Below, one piece after another: positions 20,333 through 38,232 of a DNA stretch of 64,000 bases. The notes beneath the pieces are model-generated. The model worked only from the letters and a program-made list of their open reading frames with translations, was not told the origin of the DNA and searched no databases. The position numbers and the translations under genes were made by a program. The DNA comes from Candidatus Aminicenantota bacterium. GTDB lineage: Bacteria; Acidobacteriota; Aminicenantia; Aminicenantales; Aminicenantaceae. The DNA is taken from positions 1 through 64,000 of the forward strand of contig JAFGMO010000025.1 of NCBI GenBank assembly GCA_016927475.1, read 5' to 3'. Position 1 is the first letter of the stretch; every line of letters starts with the position of its first letter.

Positions 20333-21322
20333 TTATAGATGGAGTTCGATGATATCCCCATCATCGAGGATGGAATCCCGGTTTACTTTCTGTCCCTGGT
20401 ATTTTTTTTCACTCCAGATACGAGCGTATTTAAGCTTCTGACCGAAATCCCTATGGACTGCGCTGGCCATATCCAGAACCGTGCTTCCTTTTCTCAGGGT
20501 GAAGGGCTCGGAGAAATCCGGTTTCTTCCCGGGGATTTTGCTGTAAACACGGATGATGTTAAGAAGCTCGAAAATTCTTTTTTTCAGATCTTCCAGGCTG
20601 TGGTCATTCACTGCGGAAAGCGGAATGGGTTCAAAATCCGTCGATAGATATTCCTTTAGCGTTTGAAGGTTGTCCGTTCCTCCCTTGGCATCGGCTTTGT
20701 TGGCGGTGATAATTGCCCGTTTGACATGTTGCTTCTTTTCCTCAGGAATGTTCTGCCTGGAATTTACCATGTCGATATGTTTTTCCCCTAATTTTTCCTG
20801 AATCATGAACATCATCTCTTCAGGATTTGGCTTGGAAAGGTCCAGGACAACAAGAATACCGTCGGCCCTTTTAATTATTTCGGGATACCAGGATTCCATA
20901 TAGTCGGCGGTAAGGGGAGGGGTATCGATAAGTTGAATCTGGATGTTTTCAAACTTCATCATAGCCGGAGACGTAGCATGGGTTGTGAAGGGGTAGTCGG
21001 CTACCTGAAGCGCTGCATTGGTTAGAGCATTAACCAGGCTTGTTTTGCCGGCATTCGGCGGGCCTACAAGAACAACTTGGCCGGCGCCTGTTTTTTCGAT
21101 AAGATGGGGCATTCCCTGTTTGGCGGGGCCTGTCTTTTTTTGTGCGGAAGACCTTAATTTAGCGATCTTTGTTTTCAGCAAAGCCTGAAGTTTTTCAGTC
21201 CCTTTATGCTTAGGAACGATGGATAGCAGTTCTTCGAGGATGAGAATTTTTTCTTGTGGATTTTTTGCTGTTTTGAGCTTTTTTTCCGTTTCAAAATATT
21301 GGGGCGGCAAGTTGGCGGGCAT
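20333..21322 (-). CDS. Obg/DRG-type GTPase with C-terminal TGS domain
   Basis: 329 aa. After a helical N-terminal region there is a full G domain: P-loop GPPNAGKTSLVN, switch region TTHATSPAMM, DTPP as Walker B and NKAD for guanine recognition. The last roughly 65 residues are a TGS domain (LRKGSTVLDMASAVHRDFG ... GDIIELHL), as in DRG and YchF-like GTPases, usually linked to ribosomes. The start is ATG 21322. The reading frame stays open upstream into gyrB antisense, but that part is not protein-like. Confidence 0.9.
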   Translation of the reverse strand: MPANLPPQYFETEKKLKTAKNPQEKILILEELLSIVPKHKGTEKLQALLKTKIAKLRSSAQKKTGPAKQGMPHLIEKTGAGQVVLVGPPNAGKTSLVNALTNAALQVADYPFTTHATSPAMMKFENIQIQLIDTPPLTADYMESWYPEIIKRADGILVVLDLSKPNPEEMMFMIQEKLGEKHIDMVNSRQNIPEEKKQHVKRAIITANKADAKGGTDNLQTLKEYLSTDFEPIPLSAVNDHSLEDLKKRIFELLNIIRVYSKIPGKKPDFSEPFTLRKGSTVLDMASAVHRDFGQKLKYARIWSEKKYQGQKVNRDSILDDGDIIELHL

Positions 21323-21413
21323 GATAAAGTAGACCTCTTTTTTATTATATTCAAAGTCCGTTTTTTTTTCAAAAAAACACCTTGTTTTCCCCTGTAAAAT
21401 GGCTTTTTTTTGC

Positions 21414-21442
21414 TTTACTAAAATGGTTGTTTGGGATATAAT
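21414..21442 (+). promoter_or_regulatory. Sigma-70 promoter of gyrB
   Basis: TTTACT (21414-21419), 17-base spacer, consensus TATAAT (21437-21442), about 60 bases before the gyrB start. Confidence 0.7.
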
Positions 21443-21496
21443 CATTAGCGGAATTTCTACCAATGAAGCTGTGCCAAAATCCTTCCTGCACAGTGA

Positions 21497-23905
<2,409 letters not shown>

Positions 23906-26373: not shown

Positions 26374-26470
26374 TTCCTCATAACAAACTAAAGAAAACCT
26401 TGAAGTATGAGTCTTGACAGCTCCATATGGCTAAACTACAATTGTGCCAACTCTTAACAAGGAGGCGGGT

Positions 26471-28282
26471 ATGGTCGAGACCTTGAGCGATCTTTTTTTG
26501 AACACAGTCAAGTCTTTTCCCAAAGATAATATCATGATGGTTAAGAAGGAGGGAAAATATGTTTCGATTTCCACGGATGAATTCAAAGAAAGAGTCATCC
26601 ATTTTTCCTGCGGTTTAAGTGCGTTGGGCTTGCATAAAGGGGACAAGCTTGTCATTCTATCTGAAAACCGGCCCGAATGGGTCATGACGGATATCGCCAC
26701 TATTTGCCAAGGGGGTATCACGGTTCCCATTTACACGTCGCTGGTTCCTGAACAAATAAGATACATTATCGAGGATTCAGATGCTAAAATAGTCGTCTAT
26801 TCAAACGGTGATCAATGGCCCAAACTGAATAAGATCAAGGATTCCCTGAAGAAAGTCCAGCATTTCATCAGCCTCAGTGCTGATGTACCGGAAGAAGTTA
26901 TCAGTTACAACCGGGTCCTGGAAAAAGGAAAGGAAGTGCTGGTCAAGGATCCGCAGTTTTTTGAGAAAACGGCAAAGGGGCTGCAGCCTGAAGACACGGC
27001 TTCCATCATCTATACTTCAGGAACAACGGGTATTCCTAAAGGAGTTATTCTCAGCCATAAAAATTTCGTGAGTAACGTTAAAACAACCGCAGAGATCATT
27101 GAGTTCACAGTAGAGGATACAACGCTGTCTTTCCTTCCGTTGTCCCATGTCCTTGAACGAATGGTCACATTTGCCTATCTCTACAAGGGCTGCTCCATTG
27201 CTTACGCGGAGAGTGTTGAAAAGGTAGCCGACAACTTGGTTGAAGTTCGTCCTCAAATCATGGTTTCCGTTCCAAGGGTGTTTGAAAAAATTTATTCCCG
27301 TGTGATGGATATGGTTTTATCAGGATCATCGCTGAAAAAGAAAATTTTCTTTTGGGCGGTAAAAGTAGGGAAGGAATACGGAAGGCGTCAACGGGAAAAA
27401 TACAAAATTTCCGGCTTCCTTCGGTTCAAAAGAAATATAGCCCACAAGCTGGTGTTCTCAAAGATCATCGAGAAGACAGGAGGCCGGGTCAGATTTTTCA
27501 TTTCGGGAGGGGCTCCTTTATCGAAGGATATTGCGGAGTTTTTCTATGCTATGGGTCTTCTGGTATTGGAAGGTTACGGGTTGACCGAAACATCTCCCGT
27601 TATTGCCGTCAACACCATAGAAGAGGTCAAGTTCGGCTCAGTAGGGCGGCCTATTCCTGGAGTTGATGTGAAGATCGCCGATGACGGCGAGATACTTGCC
27701 AAGGGGCCCAACGTTATGAAAGGATATTACAAGAAGGAAGCTGAAACACGGGAAGTTTTTGAAAACGAATGGTTTAAGACGGGGGATATTGGTTATCTGG
27801 ACGAAGACGGATTTCTTTTCATCACCGACCGGAAGAAAGATCTGATAGTGACAACCGGAGGTAAGAACGTTGCTCCCCAGCCCATTGAAAATAAGCTGAA
27901 AACAAATCCCTATATCTCCAATATTGTGGTCATCGGGGATAAAAGAAAATATATTGCGGCCCTGGTTGTTCCAGATTTTGAGAAGATCGGGGAGTATGCA
28001 CGCGCCAACAATATTGCCTATAGCCAACCAGAGGATCTTGTCCAAAACGATCAGGTCCGTCATTTTTTAGAAGCGGAGATCAAACGAATGACCCCTGATC
28101 TGGCCACTTACGAGGAGGTAAAACGGATTGTTATTCTGCCGAGAGATTTTGAGATTGAACAAGATGAAATAACACCTACGTTGAAGATAAAGCGGAATAT
28201 TATCGAAAACAAATACAAAAAGGAAATCGATGCTCTTTATGCGGAAGTAATGGGGGGAGAAGAGGGGTTTGACAACGATTAA
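26471..28282 (+). CDS. Long-chain acyl-CoA synthetase (AMP-forming)
   Basis: A 603-aa adenylate-forming enzyme of the FadD15/long-chain acyl-CoA ligase type. Motif A3 is IIYTSGTTGIPKG, A5 is GYGLTETSP, A7/A8 are FKTGDIGYLDEDGFL and TDRKKDLIVTTGGKNVAPQPIE. The start is ATG 26471, 5 bases after AAGGAGG. Its TAA stop is the first part of an intergenic repeat (TAACCTG). The megasynthase starts 165 bases downstream on the same strand, so this ligase may supply its acyl starter (inference). Confidence 0.93.
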   Translation: MVETLSDLFLNTVKSFPKDNIMMVKKEGKYVSISTDEFKERVIHFSCGLSALGLHKGDKLVILSENRPEWVMTDIATICQGGITVPIYTSLVPEQIRYIIEDSDAKIVVYSNGDQWPKLNKIKDSLKKVQHFISLSADVPEEVISYNRVLEKGKEVLVKDPQFFEKTAKGLQPEDTASIIYTSGTTGIPKGVILSHKNFVSNVKTTAEIIEFTVEDTTLSFLPLSHVLERMVTFAYLYKGCSIAYAESVEKVADNLVEVRPQIMVSVPRVFEKIYSRVMDMVLSGSSLKKKIFFWAVKVGKEYGRRQREKYKISGFLRFKRNIAHKLVFSKIIEKTGGRVRFFISGGAPLSKDIAEFFYAMGLLVLEGYGLTETSPVIAVNTIEEVKFGSVGRPIPGVDVKIADDGEILAKGPNVMKGYYKKEAETREVFENEWFKTGDIGYLDEDGFLFITDRKKDLIVTTGGKNVAPQPIENKLKTNPYISNIVVIGDKRKYIAALVVPDFEKIGEYARANNIAYSQPEDLVQNDQVRHFLEAEIKRMTPDLATYEEVKRIVILPRDFEIEQDEITPTLKIKRNIIENKYKKEIDALYAEVMGGEEGFDND

Positions 28283-28440
28283 CCTGAATTATTCAGAAAT
28301 TTAATATAAGGTGATATGTTCCTTCAGGTTTTGAATGATGATTCCCAGATATGTGGTCAGGCATATGATCTGGAAATAGAAAAAAACTTCTTTGAGTTTC
28401 CCATCATAATTTTTTATATTAACCTGCATTATTCAGGTTA
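28281..28440. repeat. Pair of AACCTG-type repeat arms in the intergenic gap
   Basis: AACCTGAATTATTCAG starts on the stop codon of the acyl-CoA ligase (28281-28296). AACCTGCATTATTCAGGTT (about 28421-28439), itself a small hairpin AACCTG/CAGGTT, ends 8 bases before the megasynthase start. No clear sigma-70 promoter is seen between them. Confidence 0.6.
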
Positions 28441-28447
28441 AGATAAA

Positions 28448-31400
28448 ATGCCTAGTAATCTAAGAGTGGGGAGCAAAGAACCTGTTGCCATTATCGGAAT
28501 GGCCGGGATTTTTCCCGGATCCCAGACTGTTCAAGAATTTTTCCACAACACCCTTCGGAAACGATGTTTTGTCAGAGAGCTTCCTGATTGGGTATGGGAA
28601 CAGGATGTTTTTTTCTCTAGCGACCGCTCGGCTTCGATGAGGTCTTATTCTCGTATCGGCGCTATGTTGGGTGAATTTGATGTCGACCTGTCGTCTTTCA
28701 GGATTCCTCCCGCAGTAGCTGAAGGGATGAGTCTGGATCAAAAGCTGGCCCTGGTCTGTGCCAGAGAAACTCTACGGGATGCGGGTTATCTCAATCGGGA
28801 ATTCAACCGCGAACGTACCGGGGTGATTGTTGCTGCCGCCGGCGGACATACCGCCTCTTTAGATGGAATTGCGGAGAAGCGTTTCCGTAAAAGGATAGAG
28901 AAACTTGCCAAAGACGAGAACCGGAAGCGCTGGTTGGCGGAACTGTGGGAAGCTTATGACAAAGCCTATCCACGGGCTCCGATAACCGAAGATTCGCTGC
29001 CGGGAGAATTGGGGAGTCTTGTCTCAGGACGGATCGCCTCGGTCTTTGACCTTCATGGACCGAACTTTATCCTTGACTCGGCATGTGCTTCCTCTCTGGC
29101 TGCCGCGGCGACTTCGGTCACAGTACTCCGGGCGGGGCTTTGCGATATGGTTCTAACGGGGGGCGTAGATACGGATATGGGTGCGGGCACCTATGTCGCC
29201 CTCTCTAAGGTTAAAGCACTTTCAGCCAAGGGATCGTTTCCTTTTGACCAACGGGCAGATGGGTTTGTTCTGGGTGAAGGGTGCGGATTTTTCCTTCTAA
29301 AACGTTATCAAGATGCTGTTCGCGACGGCGACCGCATTTATGCCCTCATTTTAGGGGCCGGAAGTTCATCGGATGGAGCAGGGAAAGACATCATGGCGCC
29401 GAGCAGCGAAGGACAGTCAAAGGCTTTTCACAGGGCTTACGCAGAAGCGGGCGTCGGACCCGAAGTTCTTCACTATCTCGAATGCCATGGCACCGGTACC
29501 GCAGTAGGAGATGAGGTCGAACTTACTTCCTTGAACCGCCTGATTCTTTCTCCTCCTTTGGGAAAACCGCGCAGATGTTCCCTGCCCATCGGTTCGGGCA
29601 AAGCCATGGTAGGCCACCTTAAATTAGCCGCCGGGTCCATAGGATTGTTTCGAGCTATCCTGGCCGTGAACAGCCGCATTGTTCCGCCTCAATGTCATTT
29701 TGAAATCCCAAATCCCGCTTTTGACTGGGAAAAAAGCAGACTCCATATTCCCAAGCTTCCGGAACCTATAAATGAAAACAAGGTTTATACCGGTGTTTCA
29801 GGATTCGGTTTCGGGGGGACTAATGTCCATTTGGTTCTGTCATCACCAGCTTCCAACTCCCGCCAGCCGGTCGTTTCAACCGAAGATTATATTTTTCCGA
29901 AGCTGCCCGAGATCGACAATGATATTGCTTTCATGTTTCCGGGACAAGGTTCTCAGTATGTAGGCATGCTAGAAGAGCTTCGAGAGGAGCCGGAGACGGA
30001 GCGGTTTCTCAGCCTAGCCGATAAGATTGTCATGGAAATCACGGGCCGGACCATCAGCGATAAGATGTATCCTCCTTTAAGCCTGCGTCAAAAAGATAAA
30101 AATTTGGAAAAACTGGAAGCAGAATTGAGAAGAACATCAACGGCCCAGCCCGCTTTATTTGTTGCTTCTGCCATACTTCTCGAAAAATTACGCCGGCTGG
30201 GCATAAATTGTGCTATGACTTTCGGTCTTTCCTTGGGAGAATCGACGGCCATTTATGCGGCGGGCATGCTGGGATTTGAAGATGCCCTTAGGGCTGTCGC
30301 CAAAAGAGGCCAATTGATGGAGACCATTCCCCTTGAAGATGCCGGGGCCATGGCCTTTGTTAATGCCGGGTATTTTCAGGTCGAAAAGTGGATAAGAGAA
30401 ATCGATGGATATATAATCTGCGCCAACCTGAATTCATACAGCCAGACTGTTGTCTCAGGAGAAAAGAGTTCCGTGGATGCTCTTATCAGCATGGCAACAG
30501 AGAAGGGGTTCCAAGCCGGACACCTTAATGTCGACCGGGCCTTTCATTCCGTGCTTACCAGTCCGTGTTCGTCTCCCCTGCGGAAATTCCTTGAAAAGCT
30601 TCCCTTTAAAGCAACAAAAATTCCGGTACCGGCTAATATAAGCCGCCAAATTCATCCTTATGTGACGGATGATTTTGCATCAGGAAAGGTCATGGAAACC
30701 GAGAATCTTCAGCGTGTTCTGGACCTGCAGTGCCGGATCATCGACCACCCTACGGATTTCATCTCTCAAGTTGAGTTGGCATATGAGGCGGGAATCCGCC
30801 GTTTTGTTGAGGTCGGCCCGCGTAATGTTTTGGCCGGGCTCGTTTCAGATATCCTTCAGGGAAAAGCTTTCCAGACTATTTATCTGGATCACAGGGGAAA
30901 AATCCGGAAGCAACTGGACAAACTTCAAGAGAACCTCAGGGCTCCCTTAAAGATGCGTCGCCGGCCGCTTTCCTCCAGGCTGAGAGCAAGCAGCGCAAAA
31001 CCCTTGGAGGCTGCGGATTCAGTTGAGATAAAAACTCCCTATGAACGGGTACGTTTTGCCGTTTCCCGCGTAACGGGATACAAACCGGAGCAAATTGAGG
31101 ATGATGCCGAATTCGAGCGTGACCTTGGCATCAACACCCTGAAGATTTTTGAAATTATTACCCGGCTTCGCGGAAATGTACTGCCCAGGGATTTTTCCAG
31201 GTTCAGGGAAGCAACTTCCATTCGAAAAATTTTAGATATCGCTGCTGTTGATAACCTGGGGAATGTCTCCGGTTCGACAGAACGATACTCAGGCATAAAA
31301 GAAGGAGAAGTGGTTTGTTACCAACGCCGAAGTTGTTTTTCGGATATTAAAATTTCTCCGGAGGACCTTCGAAACATGGGCCTATACCGAATTTTTGAAG

Positions 31401-34400
31401 GTCCCGGGCCGGCGATTCGCGAAACGACACTTTCTTATTTTCGCTTTATCAGAAATGAGAATAGCCGTAAAGCGCTTGTTATCTTAAGGCTTCCCGCGGA
31501 ACCGGAGGAACTTTGTTTTGAAATCATCCCTCGTTTGGTCCGTCTTGTCATAAATATCACCGATAGTTTTGGACATAGCGGAAAAAATCCGGTCGTTCAC
31601 CTTGTTACCCTGTCAAAACCGGAGCATTTTCGTTCGGCTTTTTTCCAATCCCTGAATGCATTGGTTAAGTCATTTCAGAAAGACCTGCGTTCCATCCTGT
31701 TCTATTACTCACACCTTGATTCCCTTCATCCGGACCGTGCCATGCTGTCAAAAGCCCTCGTTAAACCGGTACTGGGACGGCATGTGCATCAAGACGGGAG
31801 GATTGATGACGGCCGGCTTGTTCGGGTTTTAATACCTCAAGAAAATTTCGAAGATATTTCTCCTTTTTTCAGTGACGAAGATGTGGTTCTCGTTACGGGA
31901 GGAGCTCGGGGTATTGCTTCGAGTATCGTTCGTGCCCTTCTTCCTTATGTTAAGGCCCGGTTTCTGTTGATCGGTCGAAAGACAAAGGAAGAAAGATGGA
32001 TTTCGGAGGAAGGCAAAGGGAGGGTATGGTATATCGCTGCGGATCTATGCGATAAAGATGCTATTCGAAAAATCGATCTGCCTCGTCAGAAAATTACATT
32101 CATATTCCATGCCGCGGGTTTAAGCGCCGCCCGGCCCATCCGGGAGATTCAGGAAGAAGAGCTTATTCGGATACTTAGTGTTAAAATCCTTGGCTTGCAC
32201 AGAATTTTAGACGGTTGCGACCTTTCCCGTTTACGGGGAATTGTGAACTTTTCTTCCATAGCAGGATTTTTCGGAGGTGACGGTCACCCCGATTATGCGG
32301 CGGCCAATGGCTATTTGAACGGGTTTTCTATTAAATCCGTTCCTGTTCTTTCTATCGGATGGTCTGCCTGGGATGAAGTGGGAATGGCTACGGGAGATAC
32401 AACCAAAGAATTCCTGAAGTATGCAGGTATAAAGCCCATCCCTCTATCCAGGGGGATTGAAGTTTTTATGGGACTGCTGACGAATTTTCTGAAATCAACT
32501 GAATCTGTTACCCAAAATGTCATGGTAAGTGCGGGAATGGGTGAAGGATTTTTTCTGCATTCCGATCCTTTTTCCCCGGGAAAAACATCCGGACCTCATG
32601 GGAAAGAGTTACGGAATAAAGAAGGCTTCCAGATATTGGAATCCGGTGAATTGTCAGGATTTTTGGATAGAGGACGACAGATCGATTTTTCTCAATTTTT
32701 GACTCCTGTTGATTCTATAATGGTTCCGGAAAACACAGGGATTCTTGTGCTGAACCTTCAAAGTGCTGCCGCATTGGGAAAGAGTGATCTGTCTATATAT
32801 ACACCGGCGGAACAAAAGGAGATGTTGAAAACAAATCTGGACAAACGCCGGGATGAAAAACTTGCCGGGAAGCTTGCTGTTAAACTGCTCGTCCGTGAAG
32901 CGATGAAACGCTGGTTTGACGAAACATTTTCTCTTAACAATATTGAGGTTCTTACCGAAAATTTTCCTCTTAAAATCAGGATTTCCCCGGAAGATTATGG
33001 ACACCCTCCAGAGTCTGCGCTTTATTTTTCGATCAGCCACAGCGAAAAACGTGTTTGTGCCGCCATCAGCTTGTCTCCTATCGGTATCGATGTGGAAGAT
33101 ATAAGGCCTTTGTCCAGTAAAGTTGTAAAAGCGATTTGCGGTCCCCGGCTTGATGATTGGATGAGCGAATACCGGAAGCTTCACGAAAGCCGTGAACGCC
33201 TGAGCGTCCATGAAGTGAAGCAGGTCGTACCGCTCATTATGTTTGCTCAGAAAGAGTCCGTTCTTAAAGCGGCCGGAATTGGTTTGGCCCGGGGTTTGTC
33301 AGATGTGGTTATTTCAGATTTGGCCCTTAAACATCCGGTCACAGCATCCTACCATAATTTTCATTACCGTGTTTTCAGTACCGTCGATAACGGCAGTGTG
33401 TTTTCAATGGCTCAGCCTGATGAGGAACCATGTAAACCTCTGAAGCCTTCCACAGCGGAAAGAAAGACCGTCGAACCATCCATCGGCCAGGAAGCCCTTT
33501 GGTTTCTAGATCAAATGGAGGACGTCGGTTCGACATATCATGTCGTCTGGAGCCAGCATCTCAAGGGTCAACTTGATGTTCCGGCTATAGAGCGGTCCCT
33601 GAATACCATGGTGGAACGTCATGAAGCACTGAGGACTGTTTTTTTTGCAAAAAACGGCCGGTGCTCGGCGGAAGTTCTTTCCATAGAACAGGTTCCTTTC
33701 TTTCAAATCGATCTTACGTCAATGGGAATCCGGGAAAAGACGGAAAGGTTGGAAGAATTGACCCGGATGGAAATAGAACGGCCTTTTATTCTTTCCAAAG
33801 GACCATTGTTTCGGGTTGTGCTCTTTTGTCTTCAAGATCGGGATCATCTGCTTCTTTTTGTTTTTCACCATATCATCATGGATTCTTTTTCCGCCCTGGC
33901 CTTCCGTCAGGAATTAGCCCGATGTTATAAGGCTTATTCGACGGGGGAAAAACCCAGGCTGCAGCCTTTGCCTTTTCAATATGCGGATAGAGCGAAAGAA
34001 CAACGGAGGTGCCTGACATCAAAGGGTACGGAAAAGCTCATCGAATTCTGGAAGAGAAAGTTAGCGGATATTCCCCCTCTCTCAACGCTTCCGACAGACC
34101 GAAGACGGCCCCATGTCCAAACATTTCGGGCACAAAATGTCTCTTTTTTCATACCGCCCGGATTACTAAAGGCTCTGAGGGAATTGAGCAAAAAAGAAGG
34201 CGTCACTCTTTTTGTTACATTCCTGGCTGCCTTCCAGTTCCTTCTAAGCCGGTTGTCTGGCTTGGATGATATTGTTGTCGGGTCTCCTTTCCTGGGAAGG
34301 TCCGACCTGAAGAGCTATCCTGTTTTTGGGTATTTCGTCAATATCCTTCCCATAAGGACGGTTTTTAGTGGAAATCCCGGATTTCGGGATATTCTTCCTA

Positions 34401-37390
34401 AATTAAGGATGGAGGTCCTCGAAGCACTGGAGCATCAGGGCCTCCCTTTTTCCAAGATCGTAGAGGCGATCTCACCTGAACGTTTTACCGGTTATCCTCC
34501 GATTTTCCAGATTGTTTTTCGTCTTCTCCAAGAGAACACGAAGGGAGTAAATCTGCCGGGGCTTGGGCAGGAAATCCGTGAAATACCCGCAGGGGGCATA
34601 GCTTATGACCTTTGCCTCATGATGAACCTCAATGAAAAAGACGGAAACGGCAGGTTTGAATATAACAGCGACCTTTTTGATGAAGCAACGGTACAGAGAA
34701 TATCCGAACGTTTTCTAAGATTTCTTGAAGCTGTTGCCGCCGATCCTGAGAAACCTTTGGCTGACATTTCTCTGATGTCGACTCTGGAAAAAAATCTTGT
34801 CCTTAAAGAATGGAATAAAACACAGGTTCCCATTCCCGATATGCCTGTCCATGTGCTTTTTTCCAGGCAGGCGGATCGAACACCCGATGCCACAGCGATC
34901 GTCACCGGAAAAAAGCGTCTCAGTTACAGGGAACTGAATGAAAAGGCCAACAAACTGGCTGCTTATCTGAAAAAGAAACAGTGTGGAGAGAACGTTCTAA
35001 CAGGTGTTTTTTTGGAGAGGTCTGTCGAGATGGTGATCGCATTTATCGCGATTCTCAAGGCGGGAGGGGCTTACGTACCTCTCGATCCCAATGATCCTAT
35101 GGAGAGACTGGCCTTCATGATCGAAGATACGGGCATGAATCTATTACTCACCCGGAAGTCACTTCTTGGCCGGATTCCGGTGTCTGAGGTTACGAAAATT
35201 TGTCTTGACCGGGAATGGCCCGCTTTCGAAAAGGAAAACAAAAATAATCCTGTAAACCTTACTGAAGGGAAAGATCCCGTTTATGTCATGTACACATCCG
35301 GTTCGACCGGAACACCAAAAGGAGTCCTGGTTCCTCACCGGGCCGTTGTTCGCCTGTTTTTCGGAGCAAATTATGCCCGGCTTGATCCATCCAAAACGAT
35401 TCTACATATGGCCCCGGCTTCTTTTGACGCTTCCACTTTTGAACTCTGGGGAGCTTTGCTGCACGGAAGCAGGTGCATCCTATACCCGGATAGAATCCCA
35501 ACCATCACCGAATTGGAAGGTATTCTAAAAAAGTATAAAGTCACCACTCTCTGGCTGACCGCTTCTTTATTTAACATCCTGGTGGACGAAAAACCGGACA
35601 TCCTAAACGGAGTGGAACAAGTACTTACAGGCGGAGAAATCCTCTCTATCCCTCATGTCCGCCGGGCTCTTGAATTTTTACCGGGGACTCAAGTTATTAA
35701 CTGCTATGGCCCGACGGAAACCGCAACCTTTGCGACTTTTTATCCCGTCCCCCGCACCATCGATAAAAACATCCAATCCATACCTATCGGTCGTCCTGTC
35801 GGAAACACAAAAATATATCTGCTGGATGGACTTGGAAATCCGGTGCCCATCGGATGTCCAGGAGAAATTCATATCGGGGGACTGGCCCCGGCTCTCGGTT
35901 ATCTGAACCGCCGGCGACAAACAGAAGAATGTTTTATCCCTGACCGGTTCCATCAGAAACCGGGTGCGTCCATGTACAAAACAGGGGATATCGCCCGTTT
36001 TCTACCGGACGGCAATATCGAGTTTCACGGCCGGAATGACAGCCAAGTCAAAATAAGAGGTTTCCGTGTCGAGCCGGGAGAGATCGAAGCCGAACTTCGC
36101 CGCTTTCCTGCTGTGAAGGATGCCGCGGTCCTGGCGAAAAAGAGTCTCCCTTACGGACAAACTCTTGTCGCTTTTGTGATACCGGAAAGAGATACATCAA
36201 TCCATGCGACTGACCTTAAGACTTTTCTCGGGCGTCGTTTACCGGATTATATGATCCCTGAAAAATTTTTTTGGATTGAAAAATTTCCCATGACAAAAAG
36301 CGGAAAAATGGATAGACAAACCCTTCTTTCCGTCAAAGGATTTGTTCCGGACAGAAAAATTCCCGATGGAAAACCGATCAATAATCTGGAAAATAAGCTG
36401 CTGAGAATATGGGAAGATATTTTCAGGAAAAAAAATATAGGACCTGATGAGAACTTTTTTGACCTGGGGGGACATTCGCTCCTAGCCGTAACCCTTGTCG
36501 AAAAAATAAGGCGGGAGTTCGGAAAAGACATCCCTCTTTCAGCGGTATTTGAAGCGCCTACTGTTATGAAGCTGGCTCAGTTTCTGCACTCGAGAAGGAG
36601 AAGGATTATTTCTTCCCCTCTGATTCCCGTGAAAACCAGGGGTTCGAAAAAACCTTTCTTTGGGATCCATATGCCTTATCAAATCAAGAATTATCTGCAT
36701 CCGGAACAGCCCTATTTCATTCTAAGGTATAATGATCTGTCCCTAAACCGAAATGAAGATATTGCCGCCCGTTATCTTGAAGAAATGCTAAGGATTCAGC
36801 CTGAAGGGCCCTATTATTTTGGTGGATTTTCCTTTGGAGGTCTTGTAGCCCTTGAAGTGGCTCATCAACTGCAGGCCCGTGGACTTCCCATCGGGTATCT
36901 TGTCCTTGCGGCTCCGACACCTCTAAAAGCTCTTTCTCTTTCCAAGACAGGGAGAAACAATCCCTTTGCCTTCATGAAGAAAAGTTTGGTATTCACCACC
37001 CTCCGTTTTCCGGGATTTAGTATGAAGAGAAAACTCCGCCTTATGGTGTCCATAGGAAAGGAAAAAACCACACGGTCTTTTTTATGGGCTATGTATAAAA
37101 CAAAAATTATCGGAGAGACTGGATTATCGATCAGAATGAAAAAAATGATAACTCCCAAAATTTTGGGGAAATATGCGGTTGAATACGTTCCAAGAACTTA
37201 TGAAGGGCCGGTAACTTTCATTAGTGAAAATGGATTAGAATCTTTGGAGGATTGGAGCAAGGTGTTGGTCGGCCCGGTTGATGAATACCGGTTGTCTGTT
37301 CATCACTCGGCTCTCCATCAAGAGCCTTTTTTGGGATGCTGGGCTGAATTCATGTGCCGCGGATTGTCTCAGGCTTTAGAAAAAGGATAA
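28448..37390 (+). CDS. Hybrid PKS-NRPS megasynthase: KS-AT-ACP-KR-PPTase-C-A-PCP-TE
   Basis: A 2980-aa single-chain assembly line. KS: about 11-468 with Cys213 (DSACASS), His347 (ECHGTGT), His390 (VGHLKLA). AT: about 490-815 with Ser595 in FGLSLGES (the usual His before Ser is Leu594) and His700. ACP-like domain: about 865-933, DLGINTLKIFEI with Thr897 at the phosphopantetheine site. KR: about 1135-1345, TGGARGIA with Ser1270/Tyr1283/Asn1287. Sfp-type PPTase: about 1480-1640, GIDVED (Asp1548, Glu1550) and QKESVLKAAG. C domain: about 1677-2108, HHIIMDS. A domain: about 2131-2622, MYTSGSTGTPKG. PCP: GGHSLL, Ser2677. TE: GFSFGG, Ser2795, His2952/2957. No DH or ER is seen. The KS/AT/ACP/KR part resembles PUFA-synthase (PfaA)-like enzymes. 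Confidence 0.93.
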   Translation: MPSNLRVGSKEPVAIIGMAGIFPGSQTVQEFFHNTLRKRCFVRELPDWVWEQDVFFSSDRSASMRSYSRIGAMLGEFDVDLSSFRIPPAVAEGMSLDQKLALVCARETLRDAGYLNREFNRERTGVIVAAAGGHTASLDGIAEKRFRKRIEKLAKDENRKRWLAELWEAYDKAYPRAPITEDSLPGELGSLVSGRIASVFDLHGPNFILDSACASSLAAAATSVTVLRAGLCDMVLTGGVDTDMGAGTYVALSKVKALSAKGSFPFDQRADGFVLGEGCGFFLLKRYQDAVRDGDRIYALILGAGSSSDGAGKDIMAPSSEGQSKAFHRAYAEAGVGPEVLHYLECHGTGTAVGDEVELTSLNRLILSPPLGKPRRCSLPIGSGKAMVGHLKLAAGSIGLFRAILAVNSRIVPPQCHFEIPNPAFDWEKSRLHIPKLPEPINENKVYTGVSGFGFGGTNVHLVLSSPASNSRQPVVSTEDYIFPKLPEIDNDIAFMFPGQGSQYVGMLEELREEPETERFLSLADKIVMEITGRTISDKMYPPLSLRQKDKNLEKLEAELRRTSTAQPALFVASAILLEKLRRLGINCAMTFGLSLGESTAIYAAGMLGFEDALRAVAKRGQLMETIPLEDAGAMAFVNAGYFQVEKWIREIDGYIICANLNSYSQTVVSGEKSSVDALISMATEKGFQAGHLNVDRAFHSVLTSPCSSPLRKFLEKLPFKATKIPVPANISRQIHPYVTDDFASGKVMETENLQRVLDLQCRIIDHPTDFISQVELAYEAGIRRFVEVGPRNVLAGLVSDILQGKAFQTIYLDHRGKIRKQLDKLQENLRAPLKMRRRPLSSRLRASSAKPLEAADSVEIKTPYERVRFAVSRVTGYKPEQIEDDAEFERDLGINTLKIFEIITRLRGNVLPRDFSRFREATSIRKILDIAAVDNLGNVSGSTERYSGIKEGEVVCYQRRSCFSDIKISPEDLRNMGLYRIFEGPGPAIRETTLSYFRFIRNENSRKALVILRLPAEPEELCFEIIPRLVRLVINITDSFGHSGKNPVVHLVTLSKPEHFRSAFFQSLNALVKSFQKDLRSILFYYSHLDSLHPDRAMLSKALVKPVLGRHVHQDGRIDDGRLVRVLIPQENFEDISPFFSDEDVVLVTGGARGIASSIVRALLPYVKARFLLIGRKTKEERWISEEGKGRVWYIAADLCDKDAIRKIDLPRQKITFIFHAAGLSAARPIREIQEEELIRILSVKILGLHRILDGCDLSRLRGIVNFSSIAGFFGGDGHPDYAAANGYLNGFSIKSVPVLSIGWSAWDEVGMATGDTTKEFLKYAGIKPIPLSRGIEVFMGLLTNFLKSTESVTQNVMVSAGMGEGFFLHSDPFSPGKTSGPHGKELRNKEGFQILESGELSGFLDRGRQIDFSQFLTPVDSIMVPENTGILVLNLQSAAALGKSDLSIYTPAEQKEMLKTNLDKRRDEKLAGKLAVKLLVREAMKRWFDETFSLNNIEVLTENFPLKIRISPEDYGHPPESALYFSISHSEKRVCAAISLSPIGIDVEDIRPLSSKVVKAICGPRLDDWMSEYRKLHESRERLSVHEVKQVVPLIMFAQKESVLKAAGIGLARGLSDVVISDLALKHPVTASYHNFHYRVFSTVDNGSVFSMAQPDEEPCKPLKPSTAERKTVEPSIGQEALWFLDQMEDVGSTYHVVWSQHLKGQLDVPAIERSLNTMVERHEALRTVFFAKNGRCSAEVLSIEQVPFFQIDLTSMGIREKTERLEELTRMEIERPFILSKGPLFRVVLFCLQDRDHLLLFVFHHIIMDSFSALAFRQELARCYKAYSTGEKPRLQPLPFQYADRAKEQRRCLTSKGTEKLIEFWKRKLADIPPLSTLPTDRRRPHVQTFRAQNVSFFIPPGLLKALRELSKKEGVTLFVTFLAAFQFLLSRLSGLDDIVVGSPFLGRSDLKSYPVFGYFVNILPIRTVFSGNPGFRDILPKLRMEVLEALEHQGLPFSKIVEAISPERFTGYPPIFQIVFRLLQENTKGVNLPGLGQEIREIPAGGIAYDLCLMMNLNEKDGNGRFEYNSDLFDEATVQRISERFLRFLEAVAADPEKPLADISLMSTLEKNLVLKEWNKTQVPIPDMPVHVLFSRQADRTPDATAIVTGKKRLSYRELNEKANKLAAYLKKKQCGENVLTGVFLERSVEMVIAFIAILKAGGAYVPLDPNDPMERLAFMIEDTGMNLLLTRKSLLGRIPVSEVTKICLDREWPAFEKENKNNPVNLTEGKDPVYVMYTSGSTGTPKGVLVPHRAVVRLFFGANYARLDPSKTILHMAPASFDASTFELWGALLHGSRCILYPDRIPTITELEGILKKYKVTTLWLTASLFNILVDEKPDILNGVEQVLTGGEILSIPHVRRALEFLPGTQVINCYGPTETATFATFYPVPRTIDKNIQSIPIGRPVGNTKIYLLDGLGNPVPIGCPGEIHIGGLAPALGYLNRRRQTEECFIPDRFHQKPGASMYKTGDIARFLPDGNIEFHGRNDSQVKIRGFRVEPGEIEAELRRFPAVKDAAVLAKKSLPYGQTLVAFVIPERDTSIHATDLKTFLGRRLPDYMIPEKFFWIEKFPMTKSGKMDRQTLLSVKGFVPDRKIPDGKPINNLENKLLRIWEDIFRKKNIGPDENFFDLGGHSLLAVTLVEKIRREFGKDIPLSAVFEAPTVMKLAQFLHSRRRRIISSPLIPVKTRGSKKPFFGIHMPYQIKNYLHPEQPYFILRYNDLSLNRNEDIAARYLEEMLRIQPEGPYYFGGFSFGGLVALEVAHQLQARGLPIGYLVLAAPTPLKALSLSKTGRNNPFAFMKKSLVFTTLRFPGFSMKRKLRLMVSIGKEKTTRSFLWAMYKTKIIGETGLSIRMKKMITPKILGKYAVEYVPRTYEGPVTFISENGLESLEDWSKVLVGPVDEYRLSVHHSALHQEPFLGCWAEFMCRGLSQALEKG

Positions 37391-37417: not shown

Positions 37418-38131
37418 TTAGGCGGGCTTTTCATTCCAGTAAAGAATCCGGCCGCAATTTTCACAAAGAATAATTGATTTTTTTTCGATCAGTTCGTTGA
37501 TAACCTGGGGCCGGATACGCATATGGCACATAGAGCAGAATTCATCATAGATAGGTGATAGGGCGATGCCGATGCGGTTTTTGGATAAATTTAGATAAAG
37601 TTGCATTTGTTCTTCAGGTATTTGCGGTTCAATCTCTTTTCGTTTCTGCTGCAGTTCTTCCAGTTCTTTTTCTTTAGCGATTTTCTGTTCTTCCAGGTTT
37701 TTTATCTCATCGATATATGTTGTTTCCACATCCTGTCTTTTTTTCTCAGCTTCCTTGATTTCGACCTCGATATCATCGGCAGCAAGCATTTCGTTGAGAA
37801 TATTTTCTTCCAGTTGGTCAATTTTAGCTTGAGCCATTTCGATTTCCCGCGTTAGTGATTGGTACTCCCGGTTTGATTTTAATGAATTCTGCTGCAGTTT
37901 GTACTTTTTTACCAATTCTTTAACGTCTTTTACCTCTCCTTCCATATCTCTTCTGTTTTTCTGATTTTGAGCCATTTTTTCTTTGGCTTGGGAAACGATC
38001 TGATGGGTTTCGTCGATTTTTTTTCGGATATATTCGATTTTGGAAGGAATGTCAGTAATGAAAAGAGTGGTCTGCTTGATATTTATATCAATGTCTTGTA
38101 ATTGAATCAATCGCTCAAAATTAATAGCCAC
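37418..38131 (-). CDS. Coiled-coil protein with C4 zinc ribbon
   Basis: A 237-aa protein of the widespread C4-type zinc ribbon family (CdsZ-like). A long coiled coil (about 10-175) rich in Lys/Glu/Gln is followed by a C-terminal ribbon, FCSMCHMRI ... ILCENCGRI, with four Cys. The GTG start at 38131 has AGAGGAAAAG upstream. A longer reading would translate the adjacent tRNA and is wrong. The role is uncertain. It is convergent with the megasynthase gene. Confidence 0.88.
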   Translation of the reverse strand: MAINFERLIQLQDIDINIKQTTLFITDIPSKIEYIRKKIDETHQIVSQAKEKMAQNQKNRRDMEGEVKDVKELVKKYKLQQNSLKSNREYQSLTREIEMAQAKIDQLEENILNEMLAADDIEVEIKEAEKKRQDVETTYIDEIKNLEEQKIAKEKELEELQQKRKEIEPQIPEEQMQLYLNLSKNRIGIALSPIYDEFCSMCHMRIRPQVINELIEKKSIILCENCGRILYWNEKPA

Positions 38132-38151
38132 ATCTTTTCCTCTTGCAGGAA

Positions 38152-38223
38152 TGGGCCTACCAGGATTCGAACCTGGGACCTGCCGGTTATGAGCCGGTGG
38201 CTCTACCGCTGAGCTATAGGCCC
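38152..38223 (-). tRNA. tRNA with CAT anticodon (Ile2 or elongator Met)
   Basis: The reverse strand folds as a cloverleaf with acceptor GGGCCTA/TAGGCCC, D arm AGCTCAGCGGTAGAGC, anticodon loop CTCATAA with CAT at 38189-38191, and T arm CCAGGTTCGAATCCTGG. It is not initiator Met, since the acceptor first pair is G-C. The GGGCCTATAGCTCAG start resembles tRNA-Ile2, but Met cannot be excluded. No CCA is encoded. Confidence 0.94.
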
Positions 38224-38232
38224 TTCTCAAGT

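Follow-up and report, generated by a model that had tools for sequence, protein, structure and literature searches.

A one-gene PKS-NRPS megasynthase with an internal Sfp-type phosphopantetheinyl transferase domain and threonine at its ACP attachment site

The window analyzed here (64,000 nucleotides of a Candidatus Aminicenantota draft genome) contains an open reading frame at 28448-37390 on the forward strand which encodes 2980 amino acids without an internal stop and whose domains, according to Pfam and, for the ACP, separate scans, follow the order KS-AT-ACP-KR-PPTase-C-A-PCP-TE. PKS/NRPS megasynthases normally rely on a phosphopantetheinyl transferase (PPTase) that is encoded elsewhere. 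In the present case we hold, with moderate confidence, that the single gene encodes a PKS-NRPS which would prime itself and release an N-(3-hydroxyacyl) amino acid; cis priming, the use of Thr and the product are what we infer from the chain. What is new is the internal PPTase in a one-chain PKS-NRPS, encoded by a gene that stands alone and with Thr at a carrier site, while each of the parts and integrated PPTases as such were already known.

Architecture and proposed working of the chain

The domain order had been proposed in a first-pass annotation made from the sequence alone, and it was confirmed by Pfam on the whole protein and by a fragment scan and profiles for the ACP. Catalytic motifs are in place in KS, AT, KR, PPTase, C, A, PCP and TE. 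The KS (28478-29899, forward strand as for all domains below; residues 11-484, Pfam match 11-419) shows the Cys-His-His motifs DSACASS, ECHGTGT and KAMVGH. The AT identified by Pfam (29930-30847; residues 495-800) carries the motifs GLSLGE and AFHS, the latter of which indicates that the domain is probably malonyl-specific. Downstream of the ACP, the KR (31886-32377; residues 1147-1310; Pfam) retains its S-Y-N motif and is followed by a linker of about 100 amino acids (32483-32794), in which Pfam found no DH. In one of the Thr-ACP relatives (L138) a DH follows the KR (Pfam domains). The description of the PKS half as PfaA-like is supported by similarity and by the KS tree (see below).

The NRPS half, for which completeness had been claimed, was indeed recovered by Pfam with all four domains, the TE as a partial match. 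The condensation domain (33482-34795; residues 1679-2116; HHIIMD; Pfam and PDB relatives) is the sole C domain in the host genome. It is followed by an adenylation domain (34859-36307; residues 2138-2620; Pfam; PDB relatives LgrA and SrfA-C), whose specificity code we take, as an anchor-based guess, to be the valine-like DAFWLGCTFK. The PCP (36395-36586; residues 2650-2713; Pfam) shows LGGHSL with the canonical Ser2677, and the thioesterase (36743-37327; partial Pfam match from residue 2766) carries GGFSFGG and a C-terminal HHSALHQEP. A PKS module and a C-A-PCP-TE module are thus united in one chain, as in a type I PKS-NRPS hybrid (Pfam), except that Ser is not found at every carrier site: the ACP has Thr897 where the PCP has Ser2677.

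In the working we propose, the internal PPTase would load 4'-phosphopantetheine on the chain's own PCP (Ser2677) and ACP (Thr897), the AT would put malonyl on the ACP, the KS would extend an acyl starter and the KR would yield a 3-hydroxyacyl group, which should stay at this stage because the chain is without DH or ER. The C domain would then couple the 3-hydroxyacyl group to one amino acid, activated by the A domain and held on the PCP, before the TE would free an N-(3-hydroxyacyl) amino acid or its lactone. A one-gene machine with its own activator could function wherever the host supplies CoA, also in lineages which, like the host's taxonomic family, are mostly without an Sfp-type PPTase. 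Self-priming, if true, would explain transfer as a lone gene and would be handy for heterologous expression.

The internal PPTase domain

The Sfp-type PPTase domain is located at 32795-33433 (residues about 1450-1662) and was delimited by Pfam, alignment, the Sfp match, and AlphaFold2 with Foldseek. Its presence in the middle of the chain had been claimed correctly, while the span of 1480-1640 given at the time was too short. An HMM search, the check proposed in the first-pass annotation, passes: the Pfam ACPS/PPTase match covers residues 1544-1630 with an E-value of 5.8e-6 and 26.7 bits, just above the cut-off of 25. In sequence the domain matches B. subtilis Sfp (1qr0, 4mrt; E 2e-5), and its AlphaFold2 model (pLDDT 82.7) has Sfp-PCP-CoA (4mrt) as best PDB match in Foldseek (E 7.6e-11, TM 0.65), which is consistent with the predicted Sfp pseudo-dimer fold of about 220 amino acids. 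The domain hence resembles the group II enzyme Sfp in modeled fold and in catalytic motifs, but Sfp is a free protein. The motifs reported as intact, GIDVE and KES..K, are present as IGIDVE and FAQKESVLK. In alignment A1 the Mg/CoA motif GIDVE (33083-33097) holds the invariant G-D-E and FAQKESVLK (33242-33268) the invariant E and K; these five residues are common to twelve fused or adjacent PUFA-type PPTases. The Sfp signature (V/I)G(I/V)D ... (F/W)(S/C/T)xKE(S/A)xxK is matched with two small deviations, namely Ala at the S/C/T position and a spacing of about 50 instead of 40-45 residues. Motifs of the secondary-lipid P1a/P1b' type are also kept, as YGHP and FSISH.

Could the domain nevertheless be a leftover of gene fusion, retained as a structural linker, with a free Sfp-type PPTase doing the priming? 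The host genome does encode AcpS and a free Sfp-type PPTase (contig C75), the internal domain is diverged (18-26% identity to relatives in the alignment), and the W..KE motif has Phe where Trp is usual. A useless enzyme domain of 210 residues would be expected to lose its catalytic residues, however, and here every invariant catalytic column and both the YGHP and FSISH motifs are retained, in a model that folds like Sfp. We therefore regard the leftover scenario as unlikely. Self-activation by the internal PPTase is plausible. Cis priming need not be essential in the present host, since AcpS and the free enzyme are available. An extended Sfp-type match to PPTase profile A1 was seen in only 3 of 38 genomes of the host's taxonomic family (host included), and because most relatives show no such match a newly arrived gene would profit from having its PPTase built in. 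Against our main reading we count the Thr in place of Ser in the ACP, the free Sfp-type PPTase that could prime, the long KS branch, and the fact that no second copy of the architecture is there to show selection. The free Sfp-type PPTase gene adjoins a second PKS of the host genome (L063:7945-12531, G000:C75), a KS-AT-KR-ACP protein of 1529 amino acids.

The survey with profile A1 covered the phylum together with the class and two other classes within it (883 genomes in all), and any statement of uniqueness refers to this sample. The megasynthase PPTase is the best match of the survey and the only fused PPTase in its own class. All other fused PPTases examined in the phylum stand at the C-terminus of their proteins, which are PfaC-like, PUFA-like or A-PCP, and none of those examined in the 883-genome survey has an NRPS module behind the PPTase; in the relatives' genome contigs the PPTase is followed by no more than about 200 residues, compared with about 1,320 here. 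The first-pass annotation knew of no family with this order, and among the 883 genomes we likewise found no relative sharing it. Other large-frame PPTases of the phylum were considered as candidates for the same architecture and rejected, as those examined are C-terminal, one set with no more than about 60 residues after the PPTase. A search of the phylum for KR plus PPTase returned KR matches only, a plasmid tblastn matched nowhere over the greater part of its query, and in a Pfam PF01648 survey of the phylum AcpS took up the matches listed.

Insertion of a PPTase into a finished PKS-NRPS appears unlikely. By comparison with related proteins the simpler account is that the NRPS module was joined behind the PPTase, because in these proteins the PPTase stands at or just after the PKS C-terminus. 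The PKS half is related to a PUFA-synthase-like (secondary lipid) Thr-ACP family with a dedicated PPTase, and the C-A-PCP-TE module is attached behind the PPTase.

Two other arrangements were seen in the survey. Proteins of about 1,560-1,680 amino acids (L150, L151; G076, G252) read A-PCP-(hexapeptide-like region)-PPTase and are NRPS-like with a C-terminal PPTase. In another genome of the host's taxonomic family (L064, G406:C48), a PKS-NRPS cluster with KS-AT-DH-ER-KR-ACP, then C, PCP, C, A, PCP and TE, shares its contig with two separate PPTase genes.

The ACP threonine and its family

The ACP (31043-31240; residues 866-931) bears Thr at the position of the phosphopantetheine-bearing Ser, a feature beyond those listed in the first-pass annotation. 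The attachment site Thr897 (codon ACC, 31136-31138) lies in DLGINTLK. The whole-protein Pfam scan missed the domain; the fragment alone passes PF00550 by a small step (21.0 vs 20.8 bits), and the domain is also picked up by profiles made from ACPs of the PUFA type. Its AlphaFold2 model is a three-helix structure (pLDDT 87.5) in which Thr897 takes the normal place at the start of helix II.

For comparison, 67 loci were drawn from a collection of 84,980 species via the ACP-KR-PPTase region, together with loci from the phylum. Two kinds of ACP occur in these loci, DLGIDS[VI]K and DLG[IV]DTVKQAE. The Thr kind, of which a protein may have as many as four in tandem, characterizes a set of PUFA-like loci with mostly tandem ACPs (L065, L070, L072, L084, L100, L112, L127, L132, L133, L137-L141, L143, L147 and L201). 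Of 17 Thr-ACP ORFs, 6 carry the PPTase as a C-terminal fusion and another 8 have one that starts 63-146 nt away; the remaining three are cut by a contig end, have a broken frame or lie 5.7 kb from the PPTase. The idea that Thr-ACPs occur only with fused PPTases was rejected, given the eight adjacent cases; a PPTase next door is likewise seen with Ser-ACP relatives in Bacillota.

In the KS tree the megasynthase groups as sister to the Thr-ACP PUFA-synthase-like proteins (support 92/89), on a long branch of 1.78 changes per column that makes its placement less sure. By architecture these proteins look like Type R secondary lipid synthases, a class for which the KS tree held no reference sequence. 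Since the KS groups with a family whose tandem ACPs carry the same Thr, Thr897 is probably an inherited family trait rather than damage. The literature searched yielded no biochemical precedent for naturally occurring Thr carriers, and the word "threonine" is absent from the text of Shulse & Allen (PMC3098273).

A Thr at the attachment site, a weak Pfam score and a long KS branch are also what one would see if the ACP were dead and the PKS half no longer elongated, leaving a chain that works as an NRPS module only or is in early decay. To us this is improbable, even more so than the leftover scenario above: 17 related ORFs keep the same Thr in their tandem ACPs, as many as four to a protein, which would be hard to maintain in non-functional carriers, the KS, AT and KR motifs are intact, and the frame runs for 8.9 kb without a stop. 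The self-priming reading can be extended to a horizontally portable one-gene PKS-NRPS that belongs to a family of carriers phosphopantetheinylated on Thr by a dedicated fused or adjacent PPTase. This larger claim we put forward only tentatively. Thr carriers common to a whole PUFA-like family raise the question whether phosphopantetheine can sit on threonine in nature, and a second one, whether such carriers are the reason why these synthases keep their own PPTase. The Thr-ACP family may prove more interesting than the PPTase fusion.

Known systems and genomic setting

Enediyne PKSEs (SgcE, CalE8) consist of KS-AT-ACP-KR, a DH and a C-terminal PPTase, and fungal FAS also has an integrated PPTase. 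The megasynthase shares with the PKSEs the KS-AT-ACP-KR order and the integrated PPTase, but differs from them in having no DH between KR and PPTase (Pfam), in the about 1,320 residues that follow its PPTase, and in its NRPS module. An enediyne PKS with a C-terminal PPTase is cited in PMC4103896. The first-pass annotation held that PPTases are usually separate or sit at the C-terminus of enediyne-type PKS; this needs qualifying, as PfaC of Pseudoalteromonas DS-12 has an integrated PPTase too (PMC3098273), and so do pfaBC and RerB. According to PMC13291983, pfaBC of Aquimarina and Flavobacterium has a PPTase domain within PKS-NRPS-PUFA triple hybrids. Like the megasynthase, these hybrids unite PUFA-like, PKS and NRPS parts; they are multi-gene clusters, however, and not one chain, and the text read describes no internal PPTase with an NRPS module behind it.

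Type R secondary lipid synthases comprise KS-MAT-CLF-ACP(3-6)-KR with the PPTase downstream (Shulse & Allen 2011, PMC3098273). The megasynthase resembles them in the grouping of its KS with Type R-like proteins, in a PPTase tied to the PKS, and in the PPTase motifs P1a x(G/D)xP and P1b' hShxH; it also shares the ACP Thr with the Type R-like proteins found here. In contrast to Type R, it has one KS only with no CLF after the AT, no DH, a single ACP instead of 3-6 tandem copies, an internal fused PPTase instead of a separate downstream gene, and an added NRPS module with TE. Among systems with data, the one that comes closest in logic is RerA/RerB of Rhodococcus erythropolis PR4 (KS-AT-ACP-ACP-KR-DH and PPTase-Y-TE), in which inactivation of the RerB PPTase abolished the product (PMC11563203). 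Common to both is a KS-AT-ACP-KR core followed by a PPTase leading into a TE-bearing chain, but RerA/RerB are two proteins with two ACPs and a DH and have no C-A-PCP module.

The megasynthase gene stands in the block gyrB-gyrA-ligase-[megasynthase]-Zn ribbon-rpoD-dnaG, and the neighbours scanned around it are housekeeping genes. In ten relatives of the host's taxonomic family the acyl-CoA/AMP ligase gene (26444-28282, forward strand) is directly followed by the zinc-ribbon coiled-coil gene (37418-38230, reverse strand, convergent), without the megasynthase. The megasynthase is therefore an insertion of one gene, about 9 kb long, and the ligase belongs to the core genes, with its place after gyrA kept in the family. 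No megasynthase was found in other genomes of this family. The ligase was considered as a dedicated partner and rejected, as it is kept after gyrA in relatives without the megasynthase. That two genes were wrongly joined in this 104-contig draft, in a gene without a second copy in the genomes surveyed, is very improbable, since the gene order of the family is kept on both flanks within one contig, the frame runs on through the PPTase-C junction with similar GC and GC3 on either side, and relatives show the same PKS-then-PPTase order.

Between the ligase stop and the megasynthase start lies a 163-bp stretch (28279-28441) with inverted 18-bp repeats at its ends, which may point to how the gene arrived; no matching repeat was found on the 3' side of the megasynthase. 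The repeats belong to a MITE-like family, seen at 28279-28441 and in L190-L194, in which terminal inverted repeats of 17-18 bp (TTAACCTGCATTATTCA) enclose a conserved element of about 262 bp. This family shows 182 terminal repeat matches in the 5.0-Mb genome, as compared to 0 for a control pattern, and the element had no Rfam match. Upstream in the window, a long GTPase/TGS-domain ORF on the reverse strand (20333-22360) overlaps the likewise long gyrB ORF on the forward strand (21506-23905); the start of the former is probably listed too far upstream.
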